Below are positions 1-61,283 of a stretch of 64,000 nt of DNA, piece by piece. This DNA is from Pontederia crassipes. Its lineage: Eukaryota; Streptophyta; Magnoliopsida; Commelinales; Pontederiaceae. Numbering within the stretch: position 1 is the stretch's first letter; the number at the start of each line of letters is the position of its first letter. Both the position numbers and the translations under genes were made by a program. Under the pieces are notes generated by a model, which saw nothing but the letters and a program-made list of their open reading frames with translations, made no database searches and had not been told where the DNA came from. The stretch lies in NCBI GenBank assembly GCA_030549335.1, contig CM060193.1, positions 59,115,146-59,179,145 on the forward strand. Direction: 5' to 3'.

Positions 1-645
1 AGCATCGAGATGTCCCCATTTGAAGCACTATATGGACGACCATGTCGTTCCCCAGCATGCTGGGGAGAAGTCGGCGAAAGAAAGCTACTGAGTACTGAGC
101 TTCGCAAGCAGACACAAGAATACACTGATCGAATTGAGCTTATAAAGAAAAGAATGAAGTCTGCTCAAGACCGGCAGAAAGCCTACACTGACAAGAAAAG
201 ACGAGAGCACACATTCAAGGCCGATGAACAAGTCTTGCTCAAAGTCTCACCAACCAAGGGCGTAATGAGATTCAGCAAGAAAGGAAAATTGAGCCCAAGG
301 TACGTGGGGCCTTTCGAAATTTTAAATATGGTTAGCGATTCCGCATACAGGTTGGCATTACCCTCGGCGTACGCCAGAGTGCATGACGTATTCCACGTCT
401 CATTGCTCCTGAAATACAAACACAACTACGCCAACGTCATCCAAATTGAGAAGCCGAACCTCAATGAGGATTTAACGTACGAAGAGCAGCCCACTGAGTT
501 ATTAGAATACTAAGAGGTCCAAAAGGGAAAGAAGACAGTGACACTGATCAAGGTGGCGTGGAAGCACCATCAAAGCAAAGAGGCCACGTGGGAATTAGAG
601 TTAGAAATGCGAGAGAAATTTTCCAGATTATTTGGTAAGCCTTGA
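1..645 (+). pseudogene. Ty3/gypsy chromovirus pol, integrase C-terminus and chromodomain
   Basis: The frame is open from the window edge and reads [13 protein letters not shown], the end of the integrase core of plant Ty3 elements. It continues through the C-terminal integrase region ([22 protein letters not shown]) to a stop at 511-513. The same frame then goes on after that stop with IKVAWKHHQSKEATWE, a chromodomain-like segment of the Tekay/Reina type, and stops near 645. The in-frame stop separates the chromodomain from integrase, so this copy is probably dead. Integrase would insert element cDNA and the chromodomain would guide it to chromatin. The element enters from outside the window, so gag, protease and reverse transcriptase are not visible. 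A purine-rich tract and the 3' LTR follow directly. Family assignment is firm; the exact clade is inference. Confidence 0.9.
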
Positions 646-696
646 CCTTCATCTAAATTCGAGCACGAATTTCTTTTTAAGGGGTAGTAATGTAAT

Positions 697-697
<1 letters not shown>

Positions 698-727
<30 letters not shown>

Positions 728-1445
728 AGCCTTATCCCACTAGGTGGGGTCGGCTACATGGATCATACGATGCCATTCCGCTCTATTAGTAACCAAACCT
801 TTCGGTATATTATTCACCAATAGATCTTGCTCTATTAGTTCGCCAAGTGTCCGCCTTGGCATCCCTCTCCCTCTTTTAATCGGACTCCAGATTATTTGAT
901 CTACTCTTCTTACTGGCGCATCTAGTGGTCTTCTCTGAACATGACCAAACCATCTCAAACGATTCTCTACCATTTTCTCACTAATAGGAGCCACTCCGAC
1001 TCGTTCACGTATATGGTCATTCCTAATCTTATCTAATCTTGTATGACCACACATCCATCTCAACATCCTCATTTTGGCTACCCCCACTTTACGTTCATGT
1101 TGTCCCTTCATAGCCCAACATTCACTACCATATAACACTGCTGGCCTTATAGCAGTACGATAGAATTTTCCTTTAACTTTATTGGGTACTTTTCTATCAC
1201 AAAGAACTCCAGTGGCTTTCCTCCACTTACACCAACCAGCTTGAATTCTATGATTAACATCGTCATCAATCTCACCATCTTGTCTTACAATTGATCCTAA
1301 ATATTTAAACTTTGTCACTTGAGGAATTATATCCTCCCCTAACCTAACTTTCAAATCGTCTCTAAGTTGTTTATTTGTGAAATTGCTATGCATATATTCT
1401 GTTTTATTCCTACTTAAACGAAAACCCTTTGACTCCAACGTATTT
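698..1445 (-). mobile_element. RTE-clade LINE, 5'-truncated, with (CAA)n tail on the plus strand
   Basis: On the minus strand the last 230 or so codons of an RTE-type LINE reverse transcriptase ORF are open. They include NKTEYM, KYLGSIV, AGWCKWRKATGVLCD, AIRPAVLYGSECW and RLRWFGHVQRRP, ending IHVADPT just before the 3' end. The 3' end is a (TTG)n tail, seen here as (CAA)n from 698 to about 728; this replaces poly(A) in plant RTE LINEs. The element stops near 1437-1445 where LTR sequence resumes, so it is a 5'-truncated insertion. The retained part is the C-terminus beyond the catalytic core, so it cannot be active. The frame is intact, suggesting a fairly young insertion. Confidence 0.9.
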
Positions 1446-2035
1446 AAATGCAAAATTTAAATGCAAAATTCGAATTTAAAAAAAAAAAGAGAAGTGGGGG
1501 ACGAGAGAATCAGTCAGGAGACCGATTCTCCCCTCCCCACTCTCCTCTCCCACTTCTCTCCCCCCCATTCTCTCTCCTTCACCCCACGAACCCCTCTCCC
1601 ACTCCCTCAACTCTCTCGCCAGAAACAACATTATATGAGGAGTGCAGTGGACTTCGCCTGGGAGTTTTGGACTCTCCTCACAGCCGGCACCTCTTCTCCT
1701 CTCTCTTCTTCTCCCTTTTTCCCGGCGAATCACGAAGAGCCGACGAGTGAACGAACGATCAGTGAATTGACGTCGAGCGCCCAAGCGAGCCAAGCACAGG
1801 CAAACCGACCTCCCTCGGCACCCCCTCAAGGATTAGGCACGCACTCTCGCCGGCCGAGAACGTCTGGCGATCCATCGGAATGACGTCAACGACCACAGCG
1901 ACTGAAAAATGAACGAAAAAGGTACTATAGACGTAAAAATTCCCTAGACGAAGAAATGTGAATCAACTGTAGTGAATTTCGATTCCATTATGGCCTAGAG
2001 ATGATTAGGAATGTTTTTCGTATTATGAGTATTGT

Positions 2036-2410
2036 GATCGGACAATCAGAGGTCGGTCGAAAATGGTCTACGCGAAGAATCAGTCGACCGGTCCACCATA
2101 TCGGTTGACCGATCTTCGTTGGGCCACGTCATGAATCAGGGCCAGTCGACCGCCCCCAAGGAATCGGTCGACCGACTCTACAAGAAGCCGTCAAGCCCAA
2201 TGGTGTATGTTCAGTCAACCGAATCTTAGATTGGTCGACCGATCCTGCAACAATGACCGGCCGACCGATTCACGTCGAACGGTCGACCGGATCATCAAGT
2301 AGGGACATTCGGCTGAGAGCAGTATCGGGCGACCGGTCCCTTGGGTGGTCGACCGATTCGGCCATCTTGGTCAACCGGTCCATTAGGACGGTCGACCGGT
2401 CCAGAGAGAG
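2036..2410. repeat. Array of GGTCGACC-like palindromic motifs inside the LTR
   Basis: About thirteen variants of ggtcgaccg (for example agtcgaccgg, cggttgaccg, cggccgaccg, acggtcgaccggtcc) lie 20-35 bp apart in otherwise non-repetitive sequence. Most are close to the palindrome GGTCGACC. Similar arrays built on other motifs occur in other LTRs of this window. Confidence 0.85.
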
Positions 2411-2438
2411 AAAATCATGAACTTTAAAAGGGAAATGA

Positions 2439-2545
2439 CCAAAATGCCCTTGAGGGGCTAGAGCACTTGTGAATTGACTACAACGCCCTTGAGGGGCCAG
2501 AGCACTAGTGAAGTGACTAAAATGCCCTTGAAGGGCCAGAGCTAT
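2439..2545. repeat. Three tandem copies of a roughly 40-bp unit
   Basis: The unit contains aatgcccttgaggggc, then agagcac and gtgaa, and recurs three times with few changes (aacgcccttgaggggc, aatgcccttgaagggc). It lies inside the LTR and makes a spurious repetitive reading frame on the minus strand. Confidence 0.85.
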
Positions 2546-2749
2546 TGTAATGAATCCTAATCCTTCGACTGGCCATTGTAGGCCATGTCCAATATAGTGA
2601 AACAAATAACGAACTCTTCGTCCACAGGAAGGGGATCATACTTTACCCCCTTCTCTGAATCATAATTACAAACCCCACACTGGTAAAGAAGATAAGTAAA
2701 GTAAAGATCAATGAATGTGATAGCTGTGTGTTGTTCATGGTAAAGATCA

Positions 2750-3065
2750 AAGCATCATACAGTGGAGGGGCAGGTAGCTGCACTGAGGAGACAGTGTACC
2801 TACTAGTTTAACAACCACTGCTCCTGGACCACAGGCACTCTCCCACCTGTGCTCCGAATAAGAGTGACGCAGTGAACGCACTCTTCCCCCATGGGGGCAC
2901 ATATGAATTATATTATTATGCCAGAGGGACATGTAGCTTAGCTGAGGAGACAGTGAACCTACGGGTCCGTAACGACCATTGTTTCTAGGATGCACGCCTT
3001 CTCCCACCTGTATTCCGAAAAGGTTGTGCCTGAGTGTACACCTTCCTTTTCATGGGCACCCTGAC
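2750..3065. repeat. Direct duplication of a roughly 160-bp unit in the LTR
   Basis: The phrases gctgaggagacagtgaacct, tctcccacctgt and ttccgaa, followed by a catgggggcac-like stretch, occur in the same order at 2750-2905 and 2915-3065 with scattered differences. This is internal duplication within the LTR. No coding sense was seen. Confidence 0.75.
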
Positions 3066-3177
3066 AACATTCAGTGCAGAGACACATCTAGCTTCCCAAC
3101 TTATTAAAGTCGAGCTCATATAGGATAACGAACATCAGGGATCTCATAGTAATGTAAAAGACGTAGTCCCACACAGA

Positions 3178-3325
3178 TCATGGTAATGGATAACTGAACA
3201 ATGGTAATGGACAACAGAACAAGGTAATGGATAACAGAGCATGGTAATGGATAACAGAATAAGGTAATGGATAATATAACATGGTAATGGATAATAGAGA
3301 ATGGTAATGGATCACAGAGCATGAC
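3178..3325. repeat. Short tandem repeat, unit about 20 bp
   Basis: The unit ggtaatggataacagagcat recurs about seven times with small changes. It is a minisatellite inside the LTR. Confidence 0.85.
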
Positions 3326-5719
3326 ATTGTATAAAGCATTATTATAGTAAAGCATAAAGTAATTGATCATTGATTATCATTTCATCGTCTATGATTCTAT
3401 GAGTACTGAGCATTAGCTCATGGGCATTCCATGCCCCTGCTTTGGGATTTTGCAGGTGAGAACCCTGCTTAGGGAGGAGGTGGATAATGCAGAGCTCCAG
3501 GATGGCGGCACATGACTTACAACGACCATAGCTTTCCACCATTTATCTTCTGTATTTGAATTATGTGATGTTGTAAATATACTTGAATTTCCCTTTTAGC
3601 CTTGCTTTTGATGATGTTCTCAGAACTATTTGAACTACCTTTGTTTCCTTATTTCTCTTGAATTATCTCGAGTCATGTGACATTGTTGATTCCCAATGAT
3701 ATTTCTTTCACACTCTCATGTCATTATTATTTTTCTATCATTTCTATTGTCACATGGGTCATTTGTTGATCAGTCAAGGTCCAAGTTAAAGTCAAAGTAG
3801 TCATAGACAGTGGTAGCGCTCCCTTGATCAGTCTGATCGTCAGCGTGGCGGGAGGGTGAATTTTGGAGACGTTATAGGTTCCACGAGAACCTTCGATGGT
3901 GTTTGCCAGAACATTGCCATGTTCTAAGGCAAGTTCGTGATCCAAACACAGGCTATATGAAGTTTGCCATGCATAGTAATCAAGAGGAAAGAGAAATCAA
4001 ATTAGTTGGATAAATAAGTAGAAGTTGCTAGCTTATTGGATTTTAGAATTTGAGTTAATAACAAAAATTGATAAAAAAAACTGAAATGGATCATATTGAA
4101 ATTCATTTAAAAAATAAAAATGGAAAATAATGAAAGTATGATTAAGCAAGGAAATGATAGAAAGTTGAGGAAAATAGATCAGAGGGTGAATAAGAAAGAG
4201 AAACTAATAATAAAGAAGTAAGTCCAGAATTTGTGAAGAAAATGGAAAAAAAGACAAACAAATGAAAAGATCTGAAAATGTTCACAAAAATTTAAATGAT
4301 AAAATTAGGATTATTATAAGTTACATAACAAAATATGAGAGCAGAATTTTATTAATGCTCTATTATATATTCTTATTTAGTTGTTTTTTCTCTTTTACAC
4401 TTTCAATAAAAGATATAGGTCAATCCAATTGAAACATGATTCAACTTGTTTAACCAATTGACAAGCCAATTTGATCACCGATTCAATTTCGAAACACATT
4501 AAAATTTTGACTTACTCCTAATGAGTCGGGTTAGACTGTGTTATTCAAATTTTTTTCTTTTCCTTTTAGTTTTACAATGGATAATATTGAGTGTACACCT
4601 TTAAACCCAAGAATATAATTATTTTATTTTTAAAATATTTTTCCAAAAATATAAATCATATTTACTTTTGACTTATAACAAATTGTTTAAATTTTCAAAA
4701 ATATAAAATAAATATTTAGTGGATCATATGGGGTTTCAAGAAAAATTGAAGCTCCTTCTCGATCACTAGTGACCATATCATTTCGGGTCCCAAAATTTAA
4801 ACCAGTTTTATTTAAATTGAATTTGCTTGAGTAATTAATTTCACTTCCCTTTCTTCAACATGAAATTAATCAAAATCATAGAAAGATGCAGTACAAATTG
4901 CACAAATGGGATTGGGATTTAGACTTTGAATTATCATCACTGAATTTTGCAGCAAGTGAATACCATGAATCAGTGTGGTAAGAACGGACCGAAGGTTGAT
5001 AAAAAATCTTCATTTCATGTCGAACTAATTGGATCGATCAGATCAGATAAAAATAAAATATTATAATTAAAAAATATGTTAAATCAAATCACATAGTATC
5101 CATAATCATAGACAATAACATCATAAGTTAAACTTTTAAAATTGATACATATTAATTTACTAGCTAATAAATATTTAATAAAAGTTTAATGTCAAATTTT
5201 CTTATAAAATGAAGTCACATTTATAATATTTGTTGAAGTAAATTTTTTGTACTATATATTACATTACCACAAAATAAGAATAAAATAAAATACACAGATA
5301 AAATAGTTTAATATTGATAAATAAAAACTAAGAACAAATTAATGAATAAAAAATTGTACAGAAAAATAATCTAGCATAGGTGATATCAAAAGAGTAAAAA
5401 CAAAATTTAGCATTGAAACGAAGAGAATGAATAAAGAAAATAGTCCCACATTGAAAATACTAGAAAAGAGAGTACAAGTCAACTAATATAAAATGATCTT
5501 AGATGTTACTCCAAGCCAACTAATATAAAATGGGTTTTACTTTTGGTGTATATATATATATATATACGTGTTCGTCTAGATTGATGACACTAGTTCTACT
5601 CAATTTTCATCGGTTTTGATTGATTTTTGGTTGATTCAAAATGGTCCAATGTTAGTTCTAATTTTAGGGTAAGGTGGCCGATCGATGGTCTAATCGATCT
5701 GATCAGCCGGTCCAGTGTC

Positions 5720-7344: not shown

Positions 7345-7517
7345 TGTTGGCGCCGTCCTGTACACTATGCCACCTCCAACATCACGCCACAACAGACCCT
7401 GAAGGAAATCTCCGTCACGGCCAGGTCCTGGAGCGTAGGTCCCCGTGCAATTTCCTCGTGTTCGGCCTGGGCCACGACAGCCTGATGTGGAGCGCGCTCA
7501 ACCACGGCGGCCGCACT

Positions 7518-9765
7518 GTAATATTCTATAAAAAAAGAGAATGAAATGGCCGAATTAACCTTGAAAGTGAAAGAATTTGGAATTGTGATAAAGTTGTGAA
7601 AATGGATGCAAATGATCTTAAAAGTAAAGGAATCTTTGAAGTAAAGAAAAAAATTGAAATAAATTACAATGACCTTAAAATTAGGGCGGTTAGAGGGATA
7701 CCTTAATCATTTGAAATAATACAAGAAAGTAGCTTTTTTTTTAACTCCTAAACCCTCCCATCTCTCTGACTTAACCTTTCTTACCTCCACCGCTTAATGC
7801 ATCAGCCGACTCAACACACCCATCACCTTCAAGGGGCGGCCAGCAGCAAAAAAGGAAGAAGAAGGAGCCATTCCAGCTGAGGAGGAGAAGAAGAAAATGT
7901 TAGATATGTTTATTGTTTAATAGATGGTTTGTTGTTATGGATGTCTTTCCCTAATTGTCCACTAAGCATGTGAAATAAAATCTCTTAATGTTAATTGTTG
8001 TATGATGGTAGTTATGTGTCTAATCATTAGAAATATGTTAATCTTTAAATTTGTCCAACTTTATGCACCATGTTCTAATGAACTTTTGAATAGGTTTTTT
8101 ATTGTTTAAAAATCATGTGTAATATATGATTGACTAGATCTTGAAGTCTGGTTTCTAGGGGTTTTGGTTTCAAATCAATTAGAGTTGTGTACATAAAGTA
8201 TGTCTAAGGAATCGACCTACTGTCAAGCTGCCTCGAGTAGTAGCACGACAAATTTGAAAAATACACCAAAATTTGTAATTATCTAATATGAGAATGGACT
8301 TTATGAAGACAGGTAAATATGTCATCTTTCTATAGGATTTGATTTCTCCTAAAAAGGATGTGTTTAGAGAGTGTTATTAATGTTTTAATGTCTAGATGTC
8401 AAAGAATAATTTTAAGTGTTGTTCCCAATTTGTGCCTCATATTATAAATATTATTTGGACATGTTATAGTGGTTAAAAAATGATGAATAATATGTCTCTA
8501 AATAGATATCTATGTCTAGTTTCAGTAGGATTTGGTTTTGTGCATTTGGAGTTGTATGTGAAAAGTTATGATCAAATTAGTGAGGTGACGCCAAGCTGCC
8601 ATGGTTCAGTAACGGGCGTGATAATGATTTTCATTTTCACGGTCGTGAAAATGCTAAGGATGACAATCGGCCTCTCGTAATGACCGTCAACAATGTTGTC
8701 ACGGCTAGGACATCACCAGTCACAATCATGAACACTGAAAAAGAGTTTTTTTAGCACATTTAGCTCCTTTTGAATATGTTTATGTTATTTGGTCAATTAT
8801 TAAATAGAATTGATCAATTATGGAATGTTTAACATGATTATGCTATCGTTAATGATTTTTAACTCCCTATGCTAATTATTCTATCAATCTTTCGAAATGT
8901 GTGATGATGCTATGATATGAATGATTCATGCTTGAACAATTGTTATGATATGATTGATCATATTATTGATTGACTCACTAAAATTTGAATTGCATGCTGT
9001 CGTAGGATTAAAATGAATATTTAATTGAATGAATCCATTGAAGTTCTAGTCCACTAATCTTATGGATGTTATGCATTAATAAAGTTTAATGTTAATGAAT
9101 TGATGTTATGGAAATGAGATTGATTATTATGAATATGTTTTATTGATGGCATATAAGATTGGCTTTATTGCTTTAATGCAAGTTATTATTTTATTTATGT
9201 CCCTTACATACAACTAATGGGAGGTGAGCCTTCTTTACATCCAGGTTCGTGTAGCTATGCAGGATTGAGATGGGTCGATGGCGAACTCATGGCGTGAAGG
9301 TTGCACATGGTAGTCATAACTAATTGAGTTCTCTTATTGTGATTGTTACGTGATCTTTTGTAATAGACATGATTAGAACATTTTATAGATATTGTAAGCC
9401 TGCATACTTTTAATATGGATTTTTTTATTATGCTATTATCGGACTACAAGTATTTTATGTTGTTGGATTGGACCTTCCGTCGTTATGCTTCCGTTATTCT
9501 TTATTATAAGTTAGGGATTGCTTTAACGTTTTTGGAACATTGAGTTATTATTATTTTGGACCTTTCATCATTCCATTATAGCGTGAATTGCTTTCTTTGA
9601 TATATTGTATTTGGACTTTTAAATTATATTATATCATGTCGAGCTTTATCAGTTGCCTCTTATTAATTGTATGCTTCTGCAAACATGTTTATGTTAACGA
9701 GCTTTCACCGATGTTTTCCTCTGCTGTGTCATTGGATTATCAATCAAATTGTGTAGTATAGCGCT
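7518..9765 (+). mobile_element. LTR-like insertion (solo LTR or LTR fragment) in the GXM pseudogene
   Basis: GXM sequence breaks at ggccgcac and resumes near 9766. The insert begins tgtaatattc, like the 691 LTR. It has a motif cluster around gtcacgg/ccgtgaa (8580-8740) and, near 9230-9310, a stretch (aactcatggcgtgaaggttgcacatgg) similar to one in the 47400-49412 LTR (about 49150-49180). No gag or pol is visible. The right boundary and TSD were not resolved. Solo LTR is the best guess; a decayed MITE-like element is the alternative. Confidence 0.5.
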
Positions 9766-10570
9766 GCTTGGGACCCGCTCGAGGAGGACAAGGTTTGGAT
9801 CGACACCATCAGTAAGAGGTTTCTCGCGCTGGAGGCATACCACGTTGCGTACGAAACCAAGGTGAGCCAGACGGACGATCGGCCTGTTGCACCTGGCCAG
9901 GTCGGCGGAGTGCTCCGGGGCAGGCGCCGACGTGCGGTCCTCCGAGTGTCCCCTGGCGCTCAAGAGGCTGTCGAGCTTGTTCTACGAGGTGGAATGGGAC
10001 TTGATCATGGTGGATGCGCCAACCAGCTACTTCTCATATGTACTGGGGAGGATGGGGGACATATACACTACAGGAATGGCTGCAAGGGCCACGAGCGAGG
10101 GGGAGACCGACATGTTTGTGCACAAAGTGGACAAAAGAGTGGAGGACAAGTTCTCCATGCGTTCACTACAAGAATTTTAATATTTAGGAACGTGGAAATA
10201 CAAAGGTCATCAAAAGTGCACATAAACGTGACGTATATTAAACGTCACTAATAACTTAGCACAGTGACGTATAGCTTCAAATAGGATTAGTTCATATTTT
10301 TAATATTACTTCATCTGCACCATTCATTTATTTTTAATGTGTTAGATTAAACCTCAATGAAACCAATCCCTAACACAACCGGTTTAAACCTATTTTATTT
10401 CTCTCTCTCTCTCCTCCTTCCAACACTGCAGACCACCGGTGACCTTCTCGATCTTCGTCGACATTGACCGATCGCTTCCTCCGATGAATGCCTCCGTCAA
10501 TTAATCGCTATCATATGAGGATCGAGTGTCGTTGGTTAGATTTGTGTTCTCCCTCTTTCTTTCTTTCTCT

Positions 10571-11950: not shown

Positions 11951-12098
11951 GTCCGGATAAAGGAGGAGGGTTGTGTTAGGCCCCGACAGCAAGCGTAAAA
12001 CCCTGTCGAATCGCATGAACATGGATCAACGAATAGCGTCGTATGATCCATGTAGCCGACCCCACCTAGTGTGATAAGACTTTGTTGTTGTTGTTGTA
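11951..12098 (+). mobile_element. Short LINE-tailed non-autonomous insertion, 5'-truncated
   Basis: It begins gtccggataaaggaggaggg and ends gataagactttg(ttg)n, the tail shared with the RTE LINEs. Flanking taatgacagtgctctt and taatgacagttctcct form a slightly diverged TSD. It is nested in the CACTA element. Confidence 0.8.
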
Positions 12099-12872
12099 AT
12101 GACAGTTCTCCTAAAAGAAGAGGTGACCAAGAGTGTTTGTATAAAGTTTGTGGATCTCACCCCAGCTGCAAGCAATTGTTGTAGGTAACTCTTTTCTTCT
12201 TTTATTTGGTCATTATTATTAGCAACATTCTTTTAGTCAATTATGTAGCTCACAAAAGAAATTATATAATTTACCTTGTACCATAAATTGGAAGTCTGTC
12301 CCCCTATTAAAGGAACTAATGTTAACATTCATGTTTTGGTTGCAGGTTCCAAGAATTTTATACCTCGAATTTTCTCGGCGAGACAACTTTTTGTTATCAA
12401 TTTTCTTAGTGTCCTTTGTAATTGGACGAACTAACGTCCAGCCCTTTTAATTTCTGAAGTTGATTTGTAAAACATTTGATTCAAACGTTTAACAATGTAT
12501 GCTACATCATTTTAACAACTTTTTTGTTATTAATAAATTTTGGAGAACTTTGATTATTTGATGTTATAAATATCAGTGAGTCGTAATGAATTAAGATGCA
12601 AATATAATCATTAATATTTAGAAAGTTATTAATAATGAGTTTTTACGATATTTCAACAGTTTTAAAGTTTGCATTAAAAATAACTTTGTAGTGACGCTTA
12701 TAAAATATCACAAACAATATATTTTAGTGACATTTTATAAGCGTCACTACAAAGTTATTTTAGTTGTATTTATGACATTTGGTGACGTTTTAGTGTCACA
12801 AATACTTAATATTTTGTGACGTTTATACGTTACTAAAATGTAGAATTTTTGTGACGTTTGACCATTTTGTGA

Positions 12873-13266: not shown

Positions 13267-15507
13267 TGTAACGCCCCCAAGATTTAGTCTCAATTTAGAG
13301 ATCGAATATTAGGTGGCATTACGTTTGTATAATTCTTCATAAACTTAATTGCATAAGACATTGCAGCAAAAATATAATAAAATAAAAATAATGATAGAAA
13401 ACATAATAAAATACAACGAAAAACTTGATAAGCATATAAAATCAGAGATGTCATCAACTAGCCCATGGGTCACATAGATTCTAACATCATATATTCAACA
13501 TAGGGTTCAAATAACATAAATACATAAGGAGTTCGTACGAAAGTCTACAACTCAAGATCCATAAGTCATACATACTCGACTCACATACGAGAGTTTGACA
13601 TCATAATAAAAATAAAATAAGATAATGTGGGTCATTGGCCCGATTGACACGTGTCGATCGGTCTCTACCGTCGAGCCTAGACCTCCTTCATATCTGCACA
13701 GATCTGTGGGGTACAACAAATTTCTTCCGTTAGAATATGTTGAAGATCATGCATGTTATGAACTTATAATATGATTTCTACATGTGACATGTATTACAAT
13801 ATAATCATAAATATGAGGCATACATGTTATGAGCTATATATGCACTTTACATGACATATGAACAATAATCGTAACAAGATAGGATTATCATATAACATAG
13901 ATAACATTATGTCAAATAGTCAAAGCATATCATGCACTTATCTTACTTAATTTTAACATCTTCATTTATGACATCATATGACAAGGGAGCACACAACAGC
14001 ATACTTTTGATGCAGACATCGTCATCTTTATTTTTACGCCCCAAGTCATTTTATCTTAATCAATTTATGTGACTATAACATCTTTTCATCTTTTATCTTT
14101 AATTCGATAGCTTCTTATATTGGTTATTGAGAAGACCATACGTCGTTCATGGCTAGTCAAGCAAGATCATTTTGTCCTAGTTGGAAACTTTACACTCTTA
14201 TGTGTGGTCTTCATTTCCCATGAACTTTACACTTAAGTTAGCTAGTGTAGTCTTCGTTCCCCTCGACGATTACAACAAGTCATCTTCATCAAATCCATCT
14301 TTTAATTACATTCATCAATACATATAATCATTCAATACATGTGATACCTTTTAGCTTACTAAATTCGATTGTCCATGCATTTCATGCCTAAGTGAGGACA
14401 AAATATCAATCAATCTTTAATAACTTCCTAAATATCATCATTACTACATATTAGTTTCTTTGCTAATAAGATAGAGTGTAAATAATAGATTTAAACTTCA
14501 GTCACTATTAATTGAGTCGTTCGAAGTCCCACTACGGTTTTCCAAAGTCCGCTACGGTTTGCCTCATAGCACTATGACTAAACCGTAGAAAGTGAGCAGA
14601 GCGGGTGTTGTCGCATCCTTCTGCTACGGTTTATAATGTTGTGCTACGTTTTGTCTTGGCTTGCTATGGCTAACCTGTAGCAACTGGACTGTGCAGATGT
14701 TTCGCACCCTTCCGTTGTGGTTTATTTCGTGGCGCTATGACTTGACTTAGCTCGTTACAGTATGGCCATAGAGAACAAGCAGACGGGTTTCTTTTCAGGA
14801 TATTACGCTCCCTACGGTCATGATATGGTCCCAACCGCATGCGGTAAAATTCAACGGTACTGTGCTTCAACCGTAGGGGAGCGCATTTACAGGAACAAGA
14901 AATCGAAACTCTTCACCACATTTGTATTATCAATCATCCATGCATGATATCATCAATCCATGTAAGAGCTAAGAACATCATAATAAAAGCTACTTAGCAT
15001 GATGATATTAGATAGGCATTCAATAATCGATGAAACAGTAATTTCATAACAAAGATCCCTAATCAAACTAGATAGCAAATCACATATGCATTTTGGTCTC
15101 AAATCCCTGTGCAATAAGCATCAAGTTGATTCTTATGAATCTTAATCCATTCAACACACATCATTAAAAAAATTGACTTGGATCCCCGCAAAGATACCTT
15201 AATAAGAGTTTGAACATAACCCCAATCCTCTACTTCCTTCCTCTCTTATCTCTTCTTCCTCTTCCTTCTCCAGTTGAAACCCTTGATTCTCCACCTTCTT
15301 CTCCATGTTTCTGTTGCTCAAACTCCCTTCTCCAGCTGCTACTTTCGGCAGGTTAGATGAGAATGTGAGTGAATGGGAGGGTTAAGAAAGGGAAAAGTTT
15401 AGGGTATTATCTTTGGGGGTTTGAGTTAAATGGTCCTAGTGGGCTTCTCCGGTGGGCTTTGGGCTCACCTTTCTTTCCTTTTTATTTTTTTGATGCCGGA
15501 TGTTACA
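13267..15507 (-). mobile_element. Solo LTR, 2241 bp, with perfect TSD
   Basis: The sequence runs from tgtaacgcccc to gccggatgttaca and is flanked by aaata on both sides (13262-13266 and 15508-15512). Copy B shows the unoccupied site (gtggaaataccag-like, near 30792). The opposite strand reads tgtaacatcc and has a leader-like pyrimidine stretch, so the element probably points to the minus strand. Between 14520 and 14890 it contains an array of ctacggtt/aaccgtag motifs. There is no second LTR or internal region, so recombination between LTRs is the likely origin. Confidence 0.9.
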
Positions 15508-16534
15508 AAATATGCCAGATGTTTTGCTAATGATGCTTTCTCTTTGAAGGCGTGAAAAAAAAATAATTGAGAACCAACAGCTGCCGTGAGAAATGCTGCC
15601 ACAGAACCTAAACATCATACAATAAACAATAAACTGTATGCATCGTGTGTTACAGTCAAGAAAATGGTGCCTTGCCTATGAGGGAAGAAAAAAAGACAAC
15701 AGACCAGAACTCTTATACTTGGCAAGGCTTGAGATCCCCACAGAACATGCATGGTATGTAGAGTTAGAGACATCTGATAATTCAGTGAAAATTTTGCATG
15801 CCACTTGAAAATGCAGAAGGATTATCACTAACAACTTAGCTTGTTCAAGTCTAACATATTAAAGTGCCAAAAACTTTTCAAAAACAAAAGATACAAATAT
15901 CACAAGGTGCAAGATAAACGTTTGTTCTGGTTCCTTCCCAGCAATAGTACTTCACATTGAACAAAATGTGATACCAACAATAGATTCAGAAGACTGAGAA
16001 TTGACATGTTTAATCACTGTTATGGCCATATTCTGCTGAACAGCTCTTCAGTCGGCACTTGAACCTGTCTTCTATAACTTGCATGCAGCTTTGTTCTGTT
16101 ATCCATAAGAATGTCCCGATCAGAAATAATTTGTTCACATTAATTCAGCTTCAGCGAAAGAATTTGCTTCAGTGTTGCAGAATCAAGAAAGTGCATCAAG
16201 AGACTGATAAAACAATGAAATCATGCTCAAAAGATAATAGTCATTTTGAATGACACAAGTGACAACAGGAAAGAAACCAATTCTTATCTACGAGTGTCTA
16301 TTTAATGAATAAAGTAATCAGACATAATAAATAGCATGTGGTAGGTTTCTGGTTCAGAATGACTAACCTAAAATGATTAAATGAGGTGACAAATTGTTGA
16401 ACTAAAGAAACTCTGCCACTAATGCTTTTCTTAATCACATTGAGATATATAATATATATTCAAAATTAAAATATCAATATAGAAAGGGACATTATAAAAT
16501 GAGAATTCTGCTTTCATAGACTACTTTCAAGAAC

Positions 16535-16571
16535 AACAACAACAAAGCCTTATCCCACTAGGTGGGGTCGG
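16535..16571 (-). mobile_element. Very short RTE LINE/SINE tail insertion
   Basis: Only aacaacaacaaagcc and the next 22 bp of the shared tail are present. It is flanked by ctttcaagaac on both sides (16524-16534 and 16572-16582). Copy B has the empty site near 34820. Confidence 0.85.
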
Positions 16572-17597
16572 CTTTCAAGAACACTTTCAAGAACACTCCA
16601 ACGAAACAAAATATGTGCATAACTGCAACCGACTGTAATATTAGATGGAAAACAGATCATAGTAAGATGAGCTGATCAGCACTGATTTAAGACCACCCCT
16701 TATTTGCCCATTATGACCCAACTAAAAGTTATGCATACCTGTTTTCTTAACATTAAATGTGCCCCATCCCTTTGGTCATATAGCTTAGTCCATCTTCACA
16801 TTTAAATTCTATTGTAGCACCATCTAGACCTTGTAATCTTTCTAAAGCCCTTGGTCTTATAAATTTGCACAACATGAATCCTATTATGACAACAACTAAA
16901 ATCTTGGTCATATAAATTAGCAAGCCACTCAAGCATTCCTCCATTTTGAATGATCGTACCTCCTCTTTGCATATTGCTATTTTGAAAAATTATAGAAGTG
17001 ATGTTTTGATCAGAACCACTGTTATCAGCATACTCCCCATAAACTTCAATTGTAGAACAAACTGAGAAGGACAGAGAGGGAAAGAGAAAGGAGTATGTAT
17101 GGGATAATAGGATCTTAATTATTTTTCATTACATTCTCATGGAATTACATAAACAAAAAATTGAATATTTAATTTTGAGAAGTTTAGACAAGAACCCAAT
17201 ATTTAGTTCCCATATTGATGCAGAATAACTTTTATCATGGAGATACGGATGCAAGTTTGCATCACATGAGGACTCAACTCAAGCTGAAGGATTCAAGGTT
17301 CAGATGGGTCAGATTGACATGATCTCAAGACAAGTGATAAACTGTTTTCATCTGTCACTACAACTCTTTTACTCATTTCTTTGTACCCCATACAGCATTG
17401 TTGTGACAATGTTGAAGTGGTGCATAAATTGCAATTTTTTTAAAAAGGTAAAACATTAAAAATCAAATCCCTGGTGCTGGCAAAAGCAAAGGAAAAAAAG
17501 AATGACCACATGAGATTTGAACGCCTTTCCTTACCATCGGGGCAGATCAATAACTCATTTGTGGTGATGCTGAGCCTTCATCCTAAACTCAAAGCAA

Positions 17598-36645: not shown

Positions 36646-38548
36646 ATGACGGAACCAGGGGGACAACAGGGGCGCTGATTAATCGATTTTCGACGAACGA
36701 AAAGAGAGATTAATTGCGATTACAGGTGGGTGAATCGAAATAACCTTGCATGGCCTCTGAATTATCCCAATTCATGCCTTAATCATTGTGAAGAGAAAAG
36801 AATATGAATAGGGTTCAAGTTATCGTTTTAATTGTTTGATTTCCTGAATTCTTTGATTGGTTGATTATTTGCATGCATAATTATTTCTGGTTGTTCTATT
36901 TTGCCTTAGTGATTGCTAGGATGTAGAATTTAGAGTGGAACAAAAGTATGTTAGGGATTCAAGTGATTTCGGATTGAAAGCGGCTGGAATCCGCCGCCGT
37001 CATGGCCGTGCCATCTCCTGGCACGCCCGTGCCATTACCAGCACGACCATGCCACTCTGCCGGCACACCCGTGCCATGACAATGAAACCTAAAGGCGGCT
37101 GGAACCGGCCGTCGTCACGGCCGTGCCAATCTCTAGCACGCCTGTGCCATTATGGTTACGGTCGTTCCACGCCATGTGCACGCTGTGCCATCACTCAACG
37201 GAACATAAGTAAAAGGTCGGCCGATGCCGGTCGACCGAGCGCTCAACCGGTCATGGCTGTGCCACCCTTCCGGCACGGGCGTGCCATGACTAGCCTAGCC
37301 GCACAGGATAATCGGTCGATCGACTTTTGAATCGGTCGACCAACTTTTAAATCGGTCGACCAATCCCACCCTCCGTCACGGCCGTGCTCTTCTATGACAT
37401 GACCATGCCACCTATGTAGAACCCGATCTTCAAATCGACACGGCCGTGCCAATAGGTTGTCACGGCCATGCCTGACCACCAAACAACCCTTTGATTTCCA
37501 CCCATTAAACTTCTCTTATTTTGATATGAACATTATCGATTGTCCTATGATTCCAACATGAACCCTTTTTCCTTATTTACCTCATACCGATTTCTAGGAA
37601 CCTTTTATTAGATTTATTAATTAATTATCTTTTTAAATCTGAATATTACCTATGTACAATTGATCCTATTTTTCTGACCCTACAGAGATCCCTCACAGAT
37701 TTTCAAGATCTATTCTCTTATTGATTTATTTTCTTATTGTCCTCATCGTATTCATTGAATAAAGAAGCAAGAGCTACAAGTTATTCAAAGTGATTAATAA
37801 GATCAGATGAAAGATTAACAATGGATTGCCAGTCCAAGCCAAGTGCATCAAGATAAGGGTTGTTCCCTTGGTCATGGTTTGATCACCCACTGACCCGCAC
37901 AAGGTCTTCATTTGCTAGGCATACCCCAAGAATTAAATGCACCTAAAGTCACGCTGATTGCTAATTAATAACCAAGATAAAAAAAAGTCAAGTCAAGTTA
38001 TCGTTATGATTTTCAAGTGTGCATGATTTTAAGTTTACTAAGCATCATTTGATTCTCACGATTTATGATATCCTCTGATTCTTACTATGATCTATGATGC
38101 TGCCATGTTATCCATTCAAGTTCAAATTAAGAATTATTATTTATATCTGATTATTTTATTCATGTTATGCATTTGTATATCATGTGGTTCCCCACTAGGC
38201 TGTAAAGCTTACGGGAGGACCTCTTCCCCTGTGTCTGATTTCCATAGGATCAAGTCAGTGACGAAGTGGAGTAGGTGTGTGGTGACGAAGCTCTGGCGAC
38301 AAGATAACACACGTTAGTTTCCTTTTCCCTTCCGCAGTTATAGCTTCATGATGTAGAACTTTATTATATTCCTTAGGAATGATGTAGCCATTTTTTAGAC
38401 TTCCGCATATTTACGTTATCTTCTTTTATTTTATTATTTTTTCGCTGACGTGTCTCGATTCTTGACTGAGATATGGTCAACATTATGATCAGAGTCATAG
38501 CATGTTGTAGCGACTTCAAGTTGGTCTTCGCCAAAGTCGATCTAACTA
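36646..38548 (+). mobile_element. LTR-derived insertion replacing most of the H4-like frame
   Basis: Copy A has 18443-18712 at this place; copy B has 1.9 kb of unrelated DNA instead. The insert carries an array of palindromic motifs (36990-37480) and a later region (38170-38310: gaggacctcttcccctgtg, aagtcagtgacgaagtgg) with the layout of the other long LTRs here. Neither end shows tgta/taca or a TSD, so insertion came with deletion or the piece was copied in during repair. Confidence 0.55.
36990..37480. repeat. Mixed array of cacggccgtg-like and ggtcgacc-like motifs
   Basis: About fifteen variants of cacggccgtgcc (gcacgcccgtgcc, gcacgaccatgcc, catggctgtgcc) alternate with at least four copies of cggtcgacc/gatcg (37225-37360). 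It links the motif type of the 691 LTR with that of the 47400 LTR. Confidence 0.85.
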
Positions 38549-39960: not shown

Positions 39961-40094
39961 TCATTGATGGAGAATCCTCTACAGTGATGGGTGGACAGAA
40001 ACGACTGGTCCTGAACCCACCATTATGCAACCTCTAGTGGATCACATGCCCAACGTGATGCAGCCCCAGGAAGCTACCTCTCCCTGGGTGCAGC

Positions 40095-41262
40095 TAGGGT
40101 AGAGCAAACCCGGGACCGGGTCTAGGCGGACCCGGTCCTGGCCCGACTTTTGTCGGGTCGGAAATTTTTCGACCCGGACCCGGCCGGGTCCGAGACCGGG
40201 TCAGACCCGATAGATCAGGAATCGGACCGGGTTTGCGTCCGGGAATCCGAAATCAGGTGGCAGACGATCCGATCGCTGACGGCCGATCCGATCCGTTCGT
40301 TGGCGGCCGGATCGGCCGACAGCTACTAGATCTGGCCGCCAGAGGTCGATGAGCGGCCGGATCGGCCACTGACGCGGCCAGATCCGGTTGCCTGGCAGAT
40401 CCAGCAGTCGAATCTGGCCGCCACGACCGGATCGGCCACTGGCGTGGCCAGATCTGGCCGCTAACGGTCGATGAGCGCCGGATCGGCCACTGACGCGGCC
40501 AGATCCGGTTGCCTGGCAGATCCAGCGGTCGGATCCGCGTGCGGCCAGATCGGGCTGCCAAGCGACCGGATCTGGCCGTTGGCGGCCGGATCGGTCGCCA
40601 GGCGACCGGATCGGGTTGCTGGCGGTCGGATTAGTCGCCAGGTGATCGGATCTGGCCGTTGGCAGCTGGATCTGGCCGCCAGGCGACCGGATCGGCCACC
40701 TGGCGGCCAAATCCGATCGCTTGGCCACCTGGCGGCCAGATCCGGTCGCCTGGCGGCCGATCCGACGGCCAGGCGACCGGATCTGGCTGCCAAGCGACCA
40801 GGCGACCGGATCTGGCCGCGTCAGTGGCCGATCCGACCGTCCAAGCGGCCGGAGTAAAGAGAGAGTCAGGAGAGGGGATGAGAGGACGGCCGGAGTCGAG
40901 GGTCACCGTCGCCGCCGTGAGAGAGAGGGAGAGAGAGGGAGAGGGTGCCGGAGTCGTCGGTGCCGCCGCTGCCATCGTGAAAGAGAGGGAGAGGGCGAGA
41001 GAGAGAGGGGGAGAGAGAGGGAGAGGGCGAGAGAGAGAGGTGGGAGAGAGATTAAAATGAGAGGTGAGAGGAGAGAGTGAGTTTATGTAGGAAGTAATAT
41101 CGGGTCGGGTCCGGGTCAGGTATCTGCATTGTAGACCCAGTCCTGACCCGATACCCGACGGGTTTTCCTATCAAAAAACCCGGTCCCGGCCCGAATCTAA
41201 TCCGGGCCGAGTTTTTTTCTCAGTTTTCCGGGTCGGGCCGACCCGGCCCGTGCTCAGCCCTA
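40095..41262. mobile_element. hAT-type element inside the L1, with a GC-rich repeat array
   Basis: The left end tagggtagagca and the right end tgctcagcccta are inverted, and the 8-bp flanks ggtgcagc and agtgcagc differ at one base. Subterminal gacccgg/ccgggtc runs resemble those of the MITE at 28224, so they likely belong to one family. The middle (40255-40860) is an array built on ggccgccaggcgaccggatc and variants. 40870-41060 is gagagaggg-rich. Long overlapping frames there are by-products of low complexity. Confidence 0.88.
40255..40860. repeat. Degenerate GC-rich array, unit about 20-25 bp
   Basis: Units such as ggcgaccggatctggccg and ggccactgacgcggccagat recur many times in both orientations. 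A longer unit (gatccggttgcctggcagat with its flanks) occurs at about 40385 and 40505. Confidence 0.85.
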
Positions 41263-41594
41263 AGTGCAGCAGCCTTTGGGAGAGCTCGAGCCCCATGTGA
41301 TGGAACCGGAAGATGGCCACATCATGACTATTCGCCCACAGCCTCAAATTGAAGATTGCCATAAAAGAGACGTAATGCTCCAGGAAGCTGATCTTCCTGA
41401 AGTGGCACTGCATCTTGGCGACGAGGGGAGTACGACATCAGCCGCAGTAGCAAAACAATCAATGTGCGAAATAGAGCTCGTGGCTGCAGCTATGCCAGCA
41501 TCACGAAGCCGGGGGCCAAAAGCTTCTAGTAGGCAAGGGGATCTACATGTAATCACTAGGTCCATGATGTCGGGATCGCAGACTCTTCACGGAT

Positions 41595-45281: not shown

Positions 45282-47400
45282 ACAATTGGTGGAGAAAGGA
45301 AATCACGATCAAGTCCTGTAGTGGTATTACTTTGAATTTTCTCTTTGTTTTAGAGAAACTTTGAATATTCTCTCAAGTCAATTTGGACCAAATTTACCCA
45401 ACACCAGCTTTAAAGAGACATGAACTACAACCTACGGAGTAAATGTGTCAATGAATATTACTTGCCAATCAACCTCAAAAGATTCATGTTCTTTGCTCTC
45501 ATGTAGACTGCTATATTTGTCATTTCAAATATCTTAAAAATGTAAACTTGCATACTTTTAGCATGTTCAATTTATCTTGAATTTGTGCCCTGATTCGATG
45601 CATTTTCTTCATTCGATCTGATCATTTGTTAAAGGTTCAAGGCAGCCTATTTTTTTACATGAATGAATAAAGTAAATCTGCTTAATATTCTTTATAGCCG
45701 CGTTCAAAACCAAAACAGTAGCTTGTCACCTATTATATACTTGACAGAGTTATTTTCTGAGTGGAGTATCCAATTTATAGAAATGTCAAGAGAAGTAAAC
45801 CAAGTATCCAAATCAACATTTCATTTCCATAATCAGACATGTGTATCAACAATGCACCAGCCGAGAAACCCTGTCGCAAGCTACATGGTGCAACAGAAAT
45901 CCTGCTGCCACTGAAACATTGAAAGAGTCAACCATTCCTTTCATCAGAAAGTTGAAGAGCCTCAGTTGGTATACTACTGTGGTATGAACACTTTAGATTT
46001 TAAATACATTGTCAAATATATTGCAAAAGATTGCATGAACCATGTGAAAGAAAATGCATGTAAAATAGAAGCCTAGCGAACCCAATAGGTAAAAAATACA
46101 AAATAAAACCTATCCAATATTATTTAAGGGAAAAACTCTAACTCATGTGATATTATACAACATAACACAAAATCTCACAAATCGACGTACTTGCAAACAA
46201 TAATTATGGAAGCCATGGCCGCACTCATCACCAGCCTCAACCAAATATGTATGAGACATAATAATGGTTTTCTAATATGTGCAGAACCTTTCAAGATTAA
46301 GATTCCGAAAGCAAAAAAAAAAAAATTCTAAAAGAATCACAAATATAAGTTAGAATGCCTACCGCATGGAACATATTCTTGTGAGAAGAAAAAACATTTA
46401 AATATTCCTCACAGAAGCATTAATACCTAGTGGGTCATATCATGATTGGTGTTGGTTCTTAAGTTAACATTAAGGTTCTAAATTTGACAAAAAGAACAGA
46501 AGTACAATACCAGGGCATGCTAGGACACTTACACGTTGTCATATACATGATGCTAATATGAGAAAATGAAATTGCACAGACATTATAACGGGAAGATGAG
46601 ATAAAATTAAAGGACATGAATCATATAGCCAAAAAAGCGTGAAAGAAGACTGCATACTAGCATGTGTTCATTTCCAACAATAATGGCAGTTGGGTTTGAC
46701 CAATCCGTATCGTAGATAGAAGACCTACAAATCAGCGGATAATGTACATTGGAACAAGGGATTAGATCAAAGATTATGATCCAATAAGAACCTAGATTAG
46801 CAAAGTGGGTTATCAGTCTTTATCAAATCTGGTCCTATCAATATATCATTCCTCTGCTGCAAAGATATGTTGCCATGAACTTCTCAAAAAAATATGTTGC
46901 CATGAAAGATATCATTGTCAAATCACAAATTACTCATTATTAACAGACTCCTAAAGACTACTAGTGATTAAGTGGGAAAAGAATGCAACCAAGATCCTAA
47001 ACACAGGTGACAGGATCAAGATTCACAATCTGTTTGCCAATTCAAGTTGTTGCATAGGAAAATGAAGATCAACATGTTGAAGCAAAGTTCCTTCCCATAT
47101 TCATACCTAAATGAGTTGTTGCAATGTGGTAACCAAGCTCATCACCACTGCCATTGGCCGAGGATCTTTTCGGGTTTGGGGCGGCAACGATGCGTTCGGT
47201 TTGGATAATGTGTGTTAGCCAGCGGCGACGAAGGAGAGAGCCTTGGAAACCAGAAAACTGCTGAACTGAGCGACGTCGGAGGCTTTCCACCGCCGTAAAA
47301 TGGCGTCGGAGGATGAGGCCGTCAAATGGAATGGCAGCAGCGGCATCGAGCAGCGAGCATAGCAAAATACTGTGTAGAGAATGAATTCTGATGGTAGGTA
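45282..47400 (-). pseudogene. SpoU-type methyltransferase, 5' and middle exons, copy B
   Basis: On the minus strand, an exon near 46660-46727 follows a ttgtag acceptor and reads DTDWSNPTAIIVGNEHM, with the GNE motif of SpoU enzymes. The next exon, about 45850-45968, reads EALQLS, then loses about 20 bases, then MKGMVDSFNVSVAAGFLLHH; copy A keeps the missing bases. Further upstream, 47107-47365 is open and ends at a gtatga donor, but lacks an in-frame ATG; an alternative frame starts MPLLPFHL. It could be the first exon with a transit-like N-terminus. The 20-base deletion makes this copy dead, though parts of both copies together describe the ancestral gene. Other stretches here are intron-like. 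Confidence 0.65.
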
Positions 47401-47549
47401 AAAGTTCAAATTCTTATTAATGGATGAAAATTGCATGTTTTAATGTGTTCTACGATGAATACTTAAAATATTTATGATGTTTTAAATTATTTTCTAGACG
47501 ATTCAATATTAAAATTTAAGAATTTCGGGTGAAAAATTAGACTTCCAAG

Positions 47550-47790
47550 ACTTTGCACGGTCGTGCCAAGTCCCAGAACGGTCGTCAATGGGTGAAACCA
47601 ACATTCTATCATGACCGTGACAATATTGTCACGGCCGTGATGGAGTGGGGCACGGCCGTGACCAACCAGGTCATGACCGTGATGATGACTCGGCACGGCC
47701 GTGACAAAACATGTCACGATCGTGACCATATGCGGATGAATTATATTTCACTGTCATGGGCGTGATGCAACTATCGGCCATGACAGAACA
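47550..47790. repeat. Array of CACGGCCGTG-like palindromes
   Basis: About ten variants of cacggccgtgac (gcacggtcgtgcc, catgaccgtgat, cacgatcgtgacc) occur every 20-25 bp in both half-orientations. The array is in the corresponding part of the LTR to those at 2036 and 36990. Confidence 0.88.
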
Positions 47791-48024
47791 GAAATGAAAG
47801 CTAAGTTATTTTAAACCTATTTATTTATGTATATAGGTATGTATGGATGTGCATTGATTGTACATGACACGTAGATACACGTAACGCATGTTCAGTCGTA
47901 ATTAGGTTAAAAGATGAAGAATGATTGATATGAATGATTGTTGTATTGCAAAGCATAATCCATCTAAAGTTGAACAAGAATGTCCTCATCACTTATCAAT
48001 GATGAGAAGCAAAGTCTTGCACCT

Positions 48025-48570
48025 ATGTATGTACTTCAAGGGGACCTAAGCCCGCGAAGTAAAATCTTACATTTGGTGCATGTGCTTCTCAAGGAACAAA
48101 GTCCCTCATAAAAAAAGTGTGCATATTTCCTGGAATAAAGTTCCTCACTATTATAGTGTGTGTATTCTTCGGAATAAAGTCCCTCACTATTATAGTGTGT
48201 ATTCCTTGAAATAAAGTCCCTCACTATTATGATGTGCGTGTTCCAAGGATATGGCTTATGATGATGTGATATGATTCTTTAAACTATGTTAAGATCAAAG
48301 ATGTTATAAGATAAAGTAAGAATGAAAGTGAAGTTAACTTCAAAATATCTTATAACAAAGAATGAAAGTTAAGATGATGATGAAAAAATAAAGATGGAAA
48401 GTAAAGTCCTACATAAATGTATGTACTTCAAGGGGACCTAAGCATGAGAAGTAAAATTCTGCATTTGTGTATGTACTTTCCAAAGGAACAATATCCCTCA
48501 TCATAAAGTGTGTATTCCTAAGGATGATTAGGAATAAAGTCCCTCACTATTATGATGTGTGTTCCTAAGT
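48025..48570. repeat. Tandem repeats of 30-45 bp inside the LTR
   Basis: The unit ggaataaagtccctcactat with ttatagtgtgtattcc recurs at least five times, and a larger unit starting tatgtatgtacttcaagggg occurs twice (48025, 48420). Confidence 0.85.
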
Positions 48571-49412
48571 ATGACTTATGATATGGAAGAAAAGTCAAGA
48601 TAGTATTATGTGATAAGATGAAAGATGGAAATGACACATGAAGGATCACCTAATAAAGAAAGAAAAGAAGGATGAAATAAGATACAAAGGGTTATGAAGC
48701 AATTCTGAGGAGATGTAATGTATGAAAAAGATTCAAGAAGTAATGATCGAGGTGTTATGAAGAACTTCCTAGAATGTGCATGACAATAAATGTGAAATTG
48801 AAATGATATGTTATGTGTATGATGAATGATATGAATGTATGTTTCTATTGCATGCTACTTGCATATGATGAATCTGAAATAAAGCAGGTATGACATGACG
48901 TTTATGTTATATGAATGTTGTATGATGAATGAATGTAAGCATGATGTATTCTCATATAAGGTTTATGATATAGTTCATGGCATGTATGTTTATATGTTAT
49001 TGTTATTATGTATGTTTATTATGATGATGATGCACCATATGTAGTATCATTTGATAGGATAGCATAACATGCATGACCTTTACATACTTTAACTGAGAAA
49101 TCCTGTACTCTGGATCCGTGTAGGTAATTAAGATTAAGTGATGGATGACAGCTCAAGCTCATGACGAAGTGTTGCACATGCTTAGGTTTAAATGAGTCTT
49201 GTAGTTCTATTTGAACATTGAGGTTAATAATGTACTGAAGGTTTAGGCATTTAATGATTTCTGATATGATTAAATAGAAAGTTTTTATTTATTATGATTT
49301 TTTTCTAAATTGTCAAGTCTTTCATTGTTAAATGATGTATGGCGAACGGGCTAACGGCGTGAAATTGCCCTAACTGTCCAAAACTTTTAGGGTGGATTTT
49401 CGAATTGTTACA

Positions 49413-60700: not shown

Positions 60701-61283
60701 CATCATTACTACCATCTTCCTCCGTAGAATCACCATATCTGTCCTTTCTCCGACGCCTTCCACCGTATCTGTGTCGATCTCTATCTCTGTCTCTTTCTCT
60801 ATCCCTCGTCCTGTCTCTATTTATGTCCATGCCTCCGTCTCTATGGCCATGCCAACCGTCTCTGTCACCTCCCCGGCGGTGGTGGTGATCCAGATCCAGG
60901 TCCCGGTCATGCACGCGCTCGATGTCGAGGTGGAGCTGTTTGACGCGATCAAGGTCGTCGGGACGGGAGAGAGCTGGAAAGGCGGAGGCTTTCTGCTGGG
61001 GGTCGACCGACGTGGAAGCTCCCTTGGCTTTGGAAGAGGGTTTGGGCGGCAGGATGGCGTGGATGATGGTGAGGAGGGTGCGGACTAAGTAGTCCGGGAA
61101 CCGCGCGCCGTTGGCCTTCAGCTTGCGATCAAAGTCCTCGACGGTGGGGGAGCGGCTGCCGAGCGCGGTGATGAACTCGGCGAGGACCTTGTCGCCGCAG
61201 GCGATGTGGGACTCGAGCTCCGTGCGCACCTTGTAGACCAGAGACAGGTACTCGAGATTCTTCAGCCCGTCCACCGGCGCCAT
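57765..61283 (-). CDS. DEAH-box pre-mRNA-splicing helicase, PRP22/DHX8 type
   Basis: It encodes 1172 residues without an intron. The chosen start [15 protein letters not shown] matches the family's N-terminus; the frame extends 15 codons further, but its first codon there is GTG. An N-terminal helical region is followed by an Arg/Asp-rich stretch (residues ~125-190), then an S1 RNA-binding domain (~219-291, [20 protein letters not shown]). The helicase core has GETGSGKT (~538-545), DEAH (~637-640), SAT (~668-670) and [12 protein letters not shown] (~835-846). HA2 and OB-fold domains follow. The S1 domain before the core marks PRP22/DHX8, close to Arabidopsis DEAH5 (about 1168 residues). Such enzymes use ATP to release spliced mRNA from the spliceosome, and sit in the nucleus. 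All motifs are intact. The 5' third is visibly more GC-rich than the 3' part. It is the best-supported gene here. Confidence 0.97.

Follow-up and report, generated by a model that had tools for sequence, protein, structure and literature searches.

The window, namely the whole 64,000-nucleotide stretch of Pontederia crassipes DNA that was analysed, opens with the 3' end of the pol region of a family A element (positions 1 to 642, plus strand). Frame 1-510 contains an SH3_Tf2-1 integrase C-terminal domain, and a weak chromodomain match at 514-642 (E 0.0014) lies below the Pfam cut-off. The family A LTR follows at 691 to 3876 on the plus strand; these limits are approximate and were taken from the sequence and from the junction in genome copy L011. 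The LTR starts with TGTAAT past a purine tract, measures approximately 2.4 kb without an inserted LINE 3' end, and matches other copies over 1448-3866. The LINE 3' end (approximately 697-1447), which we take to be of RTE type, carries an ACA-repeat tail, GCCTTATCCCACTAGGTGGGGTCGGC; short pieces resembling it were seen near 12040-12100 and 16530-16572. A tandem repeat of period 20 was also noted in this LTR, outside the array described below, at 3173-3323.

Array A occupies positions 2036 to 2410 (plus strand) of the LTR and comprises 12 CGGTCGACCG-type palindromes at two or fewer mismatches, the first at 2081 and the last at 2398. The extended form of the word is ATCGGTCGACCGAT. A sequence-only reading of the same DNA had reported about thirteen such GC-rich palindromes here, together with comparable arrays in other LTRs of the window. 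The array at 2036-2410 was recovered, as were strong arrays in two further LTRs, B and C; those in D and E are weaker, D consisting mostly of half-sites and E of few units.

Array C (36990 to 37480, plus strand) combines 11 CACGGCCGTG-type and six CGGTCGACCG-type units, again at two or fewer mismatches, in one LTR. Its carrier is a family C remnant at 36651 to 38533 (plus strand) with the 5' part missing in the window; other family C copies, L062 and L063 among them, have their LTR start approximately 350-370 bp further upstream. Array B (47550 to 47795, plus strand) comprises eight CACGGCCGTG-type units at two or fewer mismatches, with the core CACG-N2-CGTG. It lies in a family B remnant at 47363 to 49412 (plus strand) that lacks approximately 1 kb of its 5' part, the full LTR being approximately 3 kb long and of the form TGTAAC...GTTACA, as suggested by copy L040. 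A tandem repeat of period 39 was noted outside the array at 48093-48230. Array D (14520 to 14890, minus strand) is made of CTACGG / CCGTAG half-sites, some of them judged by eye to lie approximately 20-22 bp apart, in an LTR placed approximately at 15506-13268 on the minus strand. Array E (8580 to 8740, plus strand) is weak, with CACGGCCGTG at two or fewer mismatches at 8611 and 8638, in an LTR placed by eye at about 7517-9780 (plus strand). Its clearest unit is a 22-bp near-palindrome at 8632-8653 around CACGGTCGTG, containing the 8638 unit; this is B-type, and 20 of its 22 bases, all but the central two, are symmetrical. LTR E also contains an internal duplication (8039-8232 and 8407-8600, 65% similar) resembling, by eye, duplicated segments that precede the array in LTR B copies, a hint that LTRs B and E are related.

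Two motif classes are present, each family carrying one or both words, and no one clear core is common to both. The sequence-only reading had assigned a different motif to each LTR. The words of A and B do differ, but one motif per LTR is ruled out by both words in C and by the B-type unit in E.

All five arrays lie in the 5' half to the middle of their LTRs. Judged by hand on copies considered complete, array A occupies approximately 24-41% of the LTR (L011), B 38-46% (L040), C 30-50% (L063) and D 27-44%, and E lies about half-way. In the window copies, the observed/expected CpG ratio of the array exceeded that of the remaining LTR part in A (1.29 vs 0.59), B (1.12 vs 0.49), C (1.13 vs 0.68), D (1.03 vs 0.61) and E (1.03 vs 0.55, with array limits set by eye). 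Perfect GC-rich 8-bp palindromes were counted in 250-bp bins along the window: the top four bins (five each) fell in A, B and C, and the next-richest held four. These five CpG-rich arrays bear out the earlier proposal that position and design are kept while the motif changes. Its statement that the LTRs are otherwise diverged agrees with the alignments, as no alignment beyond the arrays was obtained among the stretches of LTRs A, B and C present in the window (B lacking approximately 1 kb there and C 350-370 bp; best E 0.86). The same words occur in LTR parts that do not align. LTRs B and D share a weak stretch on opposite strands (65% over 238 bases, E 2e-10). A TATATA at 47830 to 47835 (plus strand), 35 bp downstream of array B, is a possible TATA box by pattern match only. 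Among the five window copies B alone has a TATAWA shortly downstream of its array; the sole match in A lies approximately 920 bp downstream, the C remnant has none, D has matches inside and well past the array, and E has them upstream.

Genome copies were fetched and examined for family A (28), family B (20) and family C (15); each query included its array, so copies lacking arrays would be missed. Between the flanks, 8-bp palindromes exceeded dinucleotide shuffles in all 28 LTR A copies (at most 4 of 200 shuffles reached the observed count). For 10-bp palindromes the excess held in 24 of 28, the remaining four not standing out (28 to 100 of 200 shuffles reached them). Motif density per kb in the matched LTR part, relative to the rest of the loci, was 6.30 vs 0.42 for A, 4.12 vs 0.03 for B and 8.73 vs 0.57 for C. 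Family A arrays measured 325-428 bp between BLAST-defined flanks, the ends of which vary among the 28 copies. The 20 family B copies contained 0 to 7 perfect 8-bp palindromes of any kind (L044 none, L048 one), the low counts reflecting the decay of many units. The array D query gave seven genome matches, five of which covered just the first 237-241 of 531 bases and ended inside the array.

The carriers were typed from LTR ends and pol. The LTRs start with TGTAAT or TGTAAC and end with GTTACA, CATTACA or a mutated form. In two family C copies TGGTATCAGAGC lies four bases past the LTR end, and we read it, presumptively, as an initiator-methionine primer site. Family A copies L001 and L002, on the same strand and 8.57 kb apart, flank the interior of the element. 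The adjoining L009 carries pieces of CCHC, protease, RT, RNase H and integrase, the family A gag-pol pieces including Integrase_H2C2 and SH3_Tf2-1 in gypsy order. Integrase-end-like pieces precede the LTR in family C copies L062, L063 and L067. The L062 piece scores as SH3_Tf2-1 and is 59% identical to that of A over 155 residues; the L063 and L067 pieces gave no chromodomain match. On sequence comparison, the pol regions of families A and C are related, and their ends are of Ty3/gypsy type. The LTR start and end words, the pol pieces and the putative primer site fit a Del/Tekay chromovirus, and the carriers are probably Ty3/gypsy elements of the Del/Tekay group, a lineage name that we infer, as we do the Ty3/gypsy nature of family B.

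Spacing between units had previously been given as 20-35 bp. Gaps were instead approximately 21 bp or near-doubles of this. Of the gaps in array A, 7 of 11 measured 20-22 bp, as did 5 of the 7 in array B and 6 of the 10 between B-type words in C; each of these three shares has P ≤ 0.00005 vs random placement in the same span. Between A-type words in C the share was 2 of 5 (P 0.011, same comparison). The other window gaps included 40, 41, 46, 47 and 62 bp, and also 12, 14, 26, 52, 54, 73, 103 and 115 bp. With a looser motif match, and with copies of one family being non-independent, the fetched copies gave 20-22 bp gaps in 146 of 329 cases for A, 117 of 168 for B and 114 of 173 for the B-type word of C. 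Two turns of B-DNA measure approximately 21 bp.

The pitch was also counted in the whole 1.13-Gb assembly (43 contigs), at distances of 20 bp and longer; the pairs are non-independent events, one family's copies being counted many times. At 20-23 bp there were 9,845 GGTCGACC pairs, compared with 274 at 24-27 bp, and reversed-pattern controls gave 2 and 1. The corresponding counts for CACGNNCGTG were 3,517 at 20-22 bp vs 44 at 23-25 bp, with 12 and 12 for the controls. Among the matches listed for contig C1, 64 of 83 GGTCGACC neighbours were at 20-23 bp, with spacers mostly differing. Triples of GGTCGACC with gaps of 6-36 bp numbered 3,127 genome-wide. The control CpG palindromes, the isomer GCTCGAGC and its reverse CGAGCTCG, gave 101 and 194 triples, so the 3,127 should be weighed against 101-194 and also against 0. 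Of the GCTCGAGC places listed, many span 40 bp, which marks them as 16-bp tandem repeats. CACGGCCGTG triples numbered 71, fewer, as a triple count, than those of the control palindromes. Spacers in the listed GGTCGACC and CACGGCCGTG triples differ between most loci. Random clustering of CpG palindromes as the sole cause is ruled out by the control-pattern counts.

Substitutions were compared between motifs and spacers. Motif columns were taken from one copy and then scored among the remaining copies, because columns chosen by inter-copy agreement favour conservation. The motif/spacer ratio of transversion divergence was 0.28 in A, 0.47 in B and 0.41 in C, and that of transition divergence 0.82, 1.33 and 1.12, respectively. 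Taken together, the two sets of ratios imply that CpG sites decay and that other changes are rarer in motifs. Same-element LTR pairs were presumed from distance and strand (one pair of A, three of C). Transitions in these pairs affected 15 of 128 motif sites in A and 41 of 549 in C, compared with 8 of 195 and 59 of 1,353 spacer sites, a motif excess that is expected of CpG decay. Transversions were few, and somewhat fewer in motifs (5 of 677 motif vs 17 of 1,548 spacer sites), numbers too small to tie the depletion to replicating lineages alone. The centre of word A is among its most conserved bases (96%) and that of word B is its least conserved part (49% and 67%); for the B-type word of array C the central G and C stand at 64% and 81%. 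The central two bases are thus relaxed in B and in the B-type word of C, and not in A.

With a little more belief than doubt, and from sequence evidence, we read the arrays as regulatory boxes of Ty3/gypsy LTRs, formed by dimeric protein sites in helical phase. They would be cis-regulatory boxes in the U3-like part of the LTR, each palindrome of 10-14 bp being the predicted site of a dimeric, sequence-specific DNA-binding protein. The binder would most likely be a host transcription factor, and a LOB-domain type factor was considered as a candidate. The box repeat of approximately 21 bp, at two B-DNA turns, would place the bound dimers on one face of the helix, where they could act together, enhancer-like, on a promoter presumed to lie downstream. 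Half-sites that vary independently, combined with a whole-turn pitch, argue for dimeric proteins along one DNA face. Word A recurs in thousands of places, and its spacers differ between them, a pattern more suggestive of a host factor than of a protein belonging to each element. Since families A and C are akin in pol, word A in C may represent plain descent and not a sign of a shared host factor. The sequence-only reading had offered three ideas, and the dimeric protein site appears the best supported of them, through the pitch, the transversion depletion, the relaxed centre in B and C (not in A) and the behaviour of double changes given next.

Alternatively, the arrays might act, or be exposed, as structured RNA, in which case inter-box hairpins would feed small-RNA silencing and the pitch would be a by-product. 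We regard this as unlikely. The RNA of the three strong arrays folds better than 60 dinucleotide shuffles each (energy z of -5.8 in A, -8.1 in B and -5.3 in C), and palindrome-rich LTR regions of maize Sireviruses concentrate small RNAs, according to passages of PMC5311732 and PMC10760457. D and E, however, fold just weakly better than shuffles (z -2.3 and -2.1), boxes without loops are poor hairpins by themselves, and folding needs no fixed two-turn pitch. Compensatory double changes within units showed no clear excess among the A, B and C copies. Double changes were above expectation at pair 2-13 of B (12 vs 5.5, five complementary), at pair 3-12 of C (10 vs 1.1, two complementary) and at pair 4-11 of the A-type word in C (9 vs 1.9, none complementary). 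Fold-back RNA, another of the earlier ideas, is possible and is less favoured than the dimer site. The third of those ideas was a methylation target; what bears on it here is the excess of motif transitions, of the kind that CpG decay would leave, in the same-element LTR pairs. For arrays of dimer sites, silencing by small RNAs may be a cost, by analogy with the exposure to small-RNA silencing that passages of PMC10760457 propose as a cost for Copia elements.

Neutral tandem-repeat turnover, in which a functionless CpG-rich unit of approximately 21 bp was multiplied by slippage, is improbable in our judgement. Local duplications are visible in family A copies L002 and L006, the control palindrome and its reverse also occur in triples, and the similarity of spacers within arrays (0.425-0.455) slightly exceeds that of shuffled spacers (0.368-0.400). 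Spacers barely more alike than shuffled are nearly unrelated, so recent tandem duplication would not by itself account for the pitch. Slippage is further opposed by the depletion of transversions in the motifs and by one pitch common to two different words genome-wide.

Even less credence is given to a rival in which the element itself encodes an anti-silencing protein that recognises the arrays, in the manner of VANC in the VANDAL transposons of Arabidopsis. VANC targets are likewise short, family-specific, fast-evolving motifs arrayed in non-coding parts (passages of PMC5735166), but they belong to DNA transposons, share one orientation and have an element-encoded binder, and that paper nowhere uses the word 'palindrom'. 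Against this rival, array C combines both words, the thousands of word A sites with their differing spacers fit a host factor better, and the L009 frames scanned (part of the frames) match gag/pol families.

The reading as dimer sites in helical phase was compared with known LTR features. The sequence-only reading knew of no named feature that fits, and close matches do exist in the Sirevirus RM boxes (Bousios et al. 2010, PMC2829016) and the Del CpG island (Cruz et al. 2014, PMC4029996). The RM of Sireviruses, which are Ty1/copia elements, is described in passages of PMC2829016 as a palindromic repeated motif that differs per element and is present in at least eight copies per element. The same passages place the boxes mostly clustered in the upper LTR half and upstream of the TATA box, with CpG islands in most, and call them Sirevirus-specific after comparison with other Ty1/copia elements. 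The arrays here resemble RM boxes in their symmetry and CpG richness, in how many copies occur and in where in the LTR they lie. The Vitis Sirevirus RM consensus given in PMC2829016 passages, CGGTCGACCG, is identical to word A. At least eight copies were counted in A (12), B (8) and C (11 + 6), and not in D or E as counted. Of the RM core CGG-CCG, A has the form CGG-TCGA-CCG; the B and C words contain CGGCCG, the centre of which is least conserved in B. The window arrays also share the CpG-rich upper-half location, E lying about half-way. The carrier differs: RM boxes belong to Ty1/copia, whereas A and C occur with Ty3/gypsy-type pol, and we therefore call them RM-like and not Sirevirus RM boxes. 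The U3 boxes of Tnt1 (Ty1/copia) are likewise fast-evolving cis-regulatory LTR boxes, with fewer boxes than here, and we know of no two-turn palindrome array in Tnt1. They are mentioned in PMC2829016 passages. Two words can share one LTR here (C), unlike the Sirevirus RM as described in those passages, and no fixed pitch for RM boxes is given in the PMC2829016 passages on spacing, distance and period.

Within Ty3/gypsy, passages of PMC4029996 describe a plastic CpG island in the 5' half of Del LTRs, poorly conserved and variable in length. Islands were reported in the monocot clusters, and none was reported in the cluster that holds every eudicot element. The arrays agree with this island in position and CpG, Del membership being putative; the words palindrom* and tandem are absent from the text of PMC4029996, as is 'palindrom' from passages of PMC4963935. 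Among the open-access matches listed, neither palindromic boxes of Ty3/gypsy LTRs nor a pitch of two turns was described. Features of this kind are already known, as RM boxes in Sireviruses and as the plastic CpG island in Del; what is apparently new, as far as those matches go, is the presence of such boxes in Ty3/gypsy LTRs, the use of two words by a single LTR, and the pitch of two turns.

If the dimer-site reading is right, the variable and unexplained CpG island of Del-type LTRs would gain an internal architecture, and RM boxes would be extended from Ty1/copia to Ty3/gypsy. The vague term 'regulatory repeat' would give way to a rule open to testing, in which dimer sites stand in helical phase, and host binders of CGGTCGACCG and of CACG-N2-CGTG would be predicted. 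Should most other GGTCGACC arrays sit in Sireviruses, families A and C could have acquired their boxes from there, or could share a host factor with them. A broader proposal, which we hold tentatively and with more doubt than belief, is a shared two-turn enhancer grammar, with pitch and symmetry conserved and the word exchangeable among non-aligning LTRs. Such LTRs would have retained, or would separately have acquired, palindromic dimer sites arrayed with a pitch of 21 bp, two words being combined in one LTR, and Sirevirus RM boxes and Del plastic CpG islands would then be one general design.

Two further features were noted in the window. A GC-rich insertion of approximately 1.2 kb (approximately 40085-41265) contains a quasi-palindromic GGATC/CGACCGG array with a period of 20/40, along with numerous inverted repeats within the insertion. 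No terminal inverted repeats of this insertion were clearly evident. Its flanks, GGTGCAGC and AGTGCAGC, were judged by eye to form an 8-bp target duplication, and it may be a hAT-like, non-autonomous element next to LINE reading frames. On the minus strand, a frame open between stops extends over 1,197 residues at 57765-61358.
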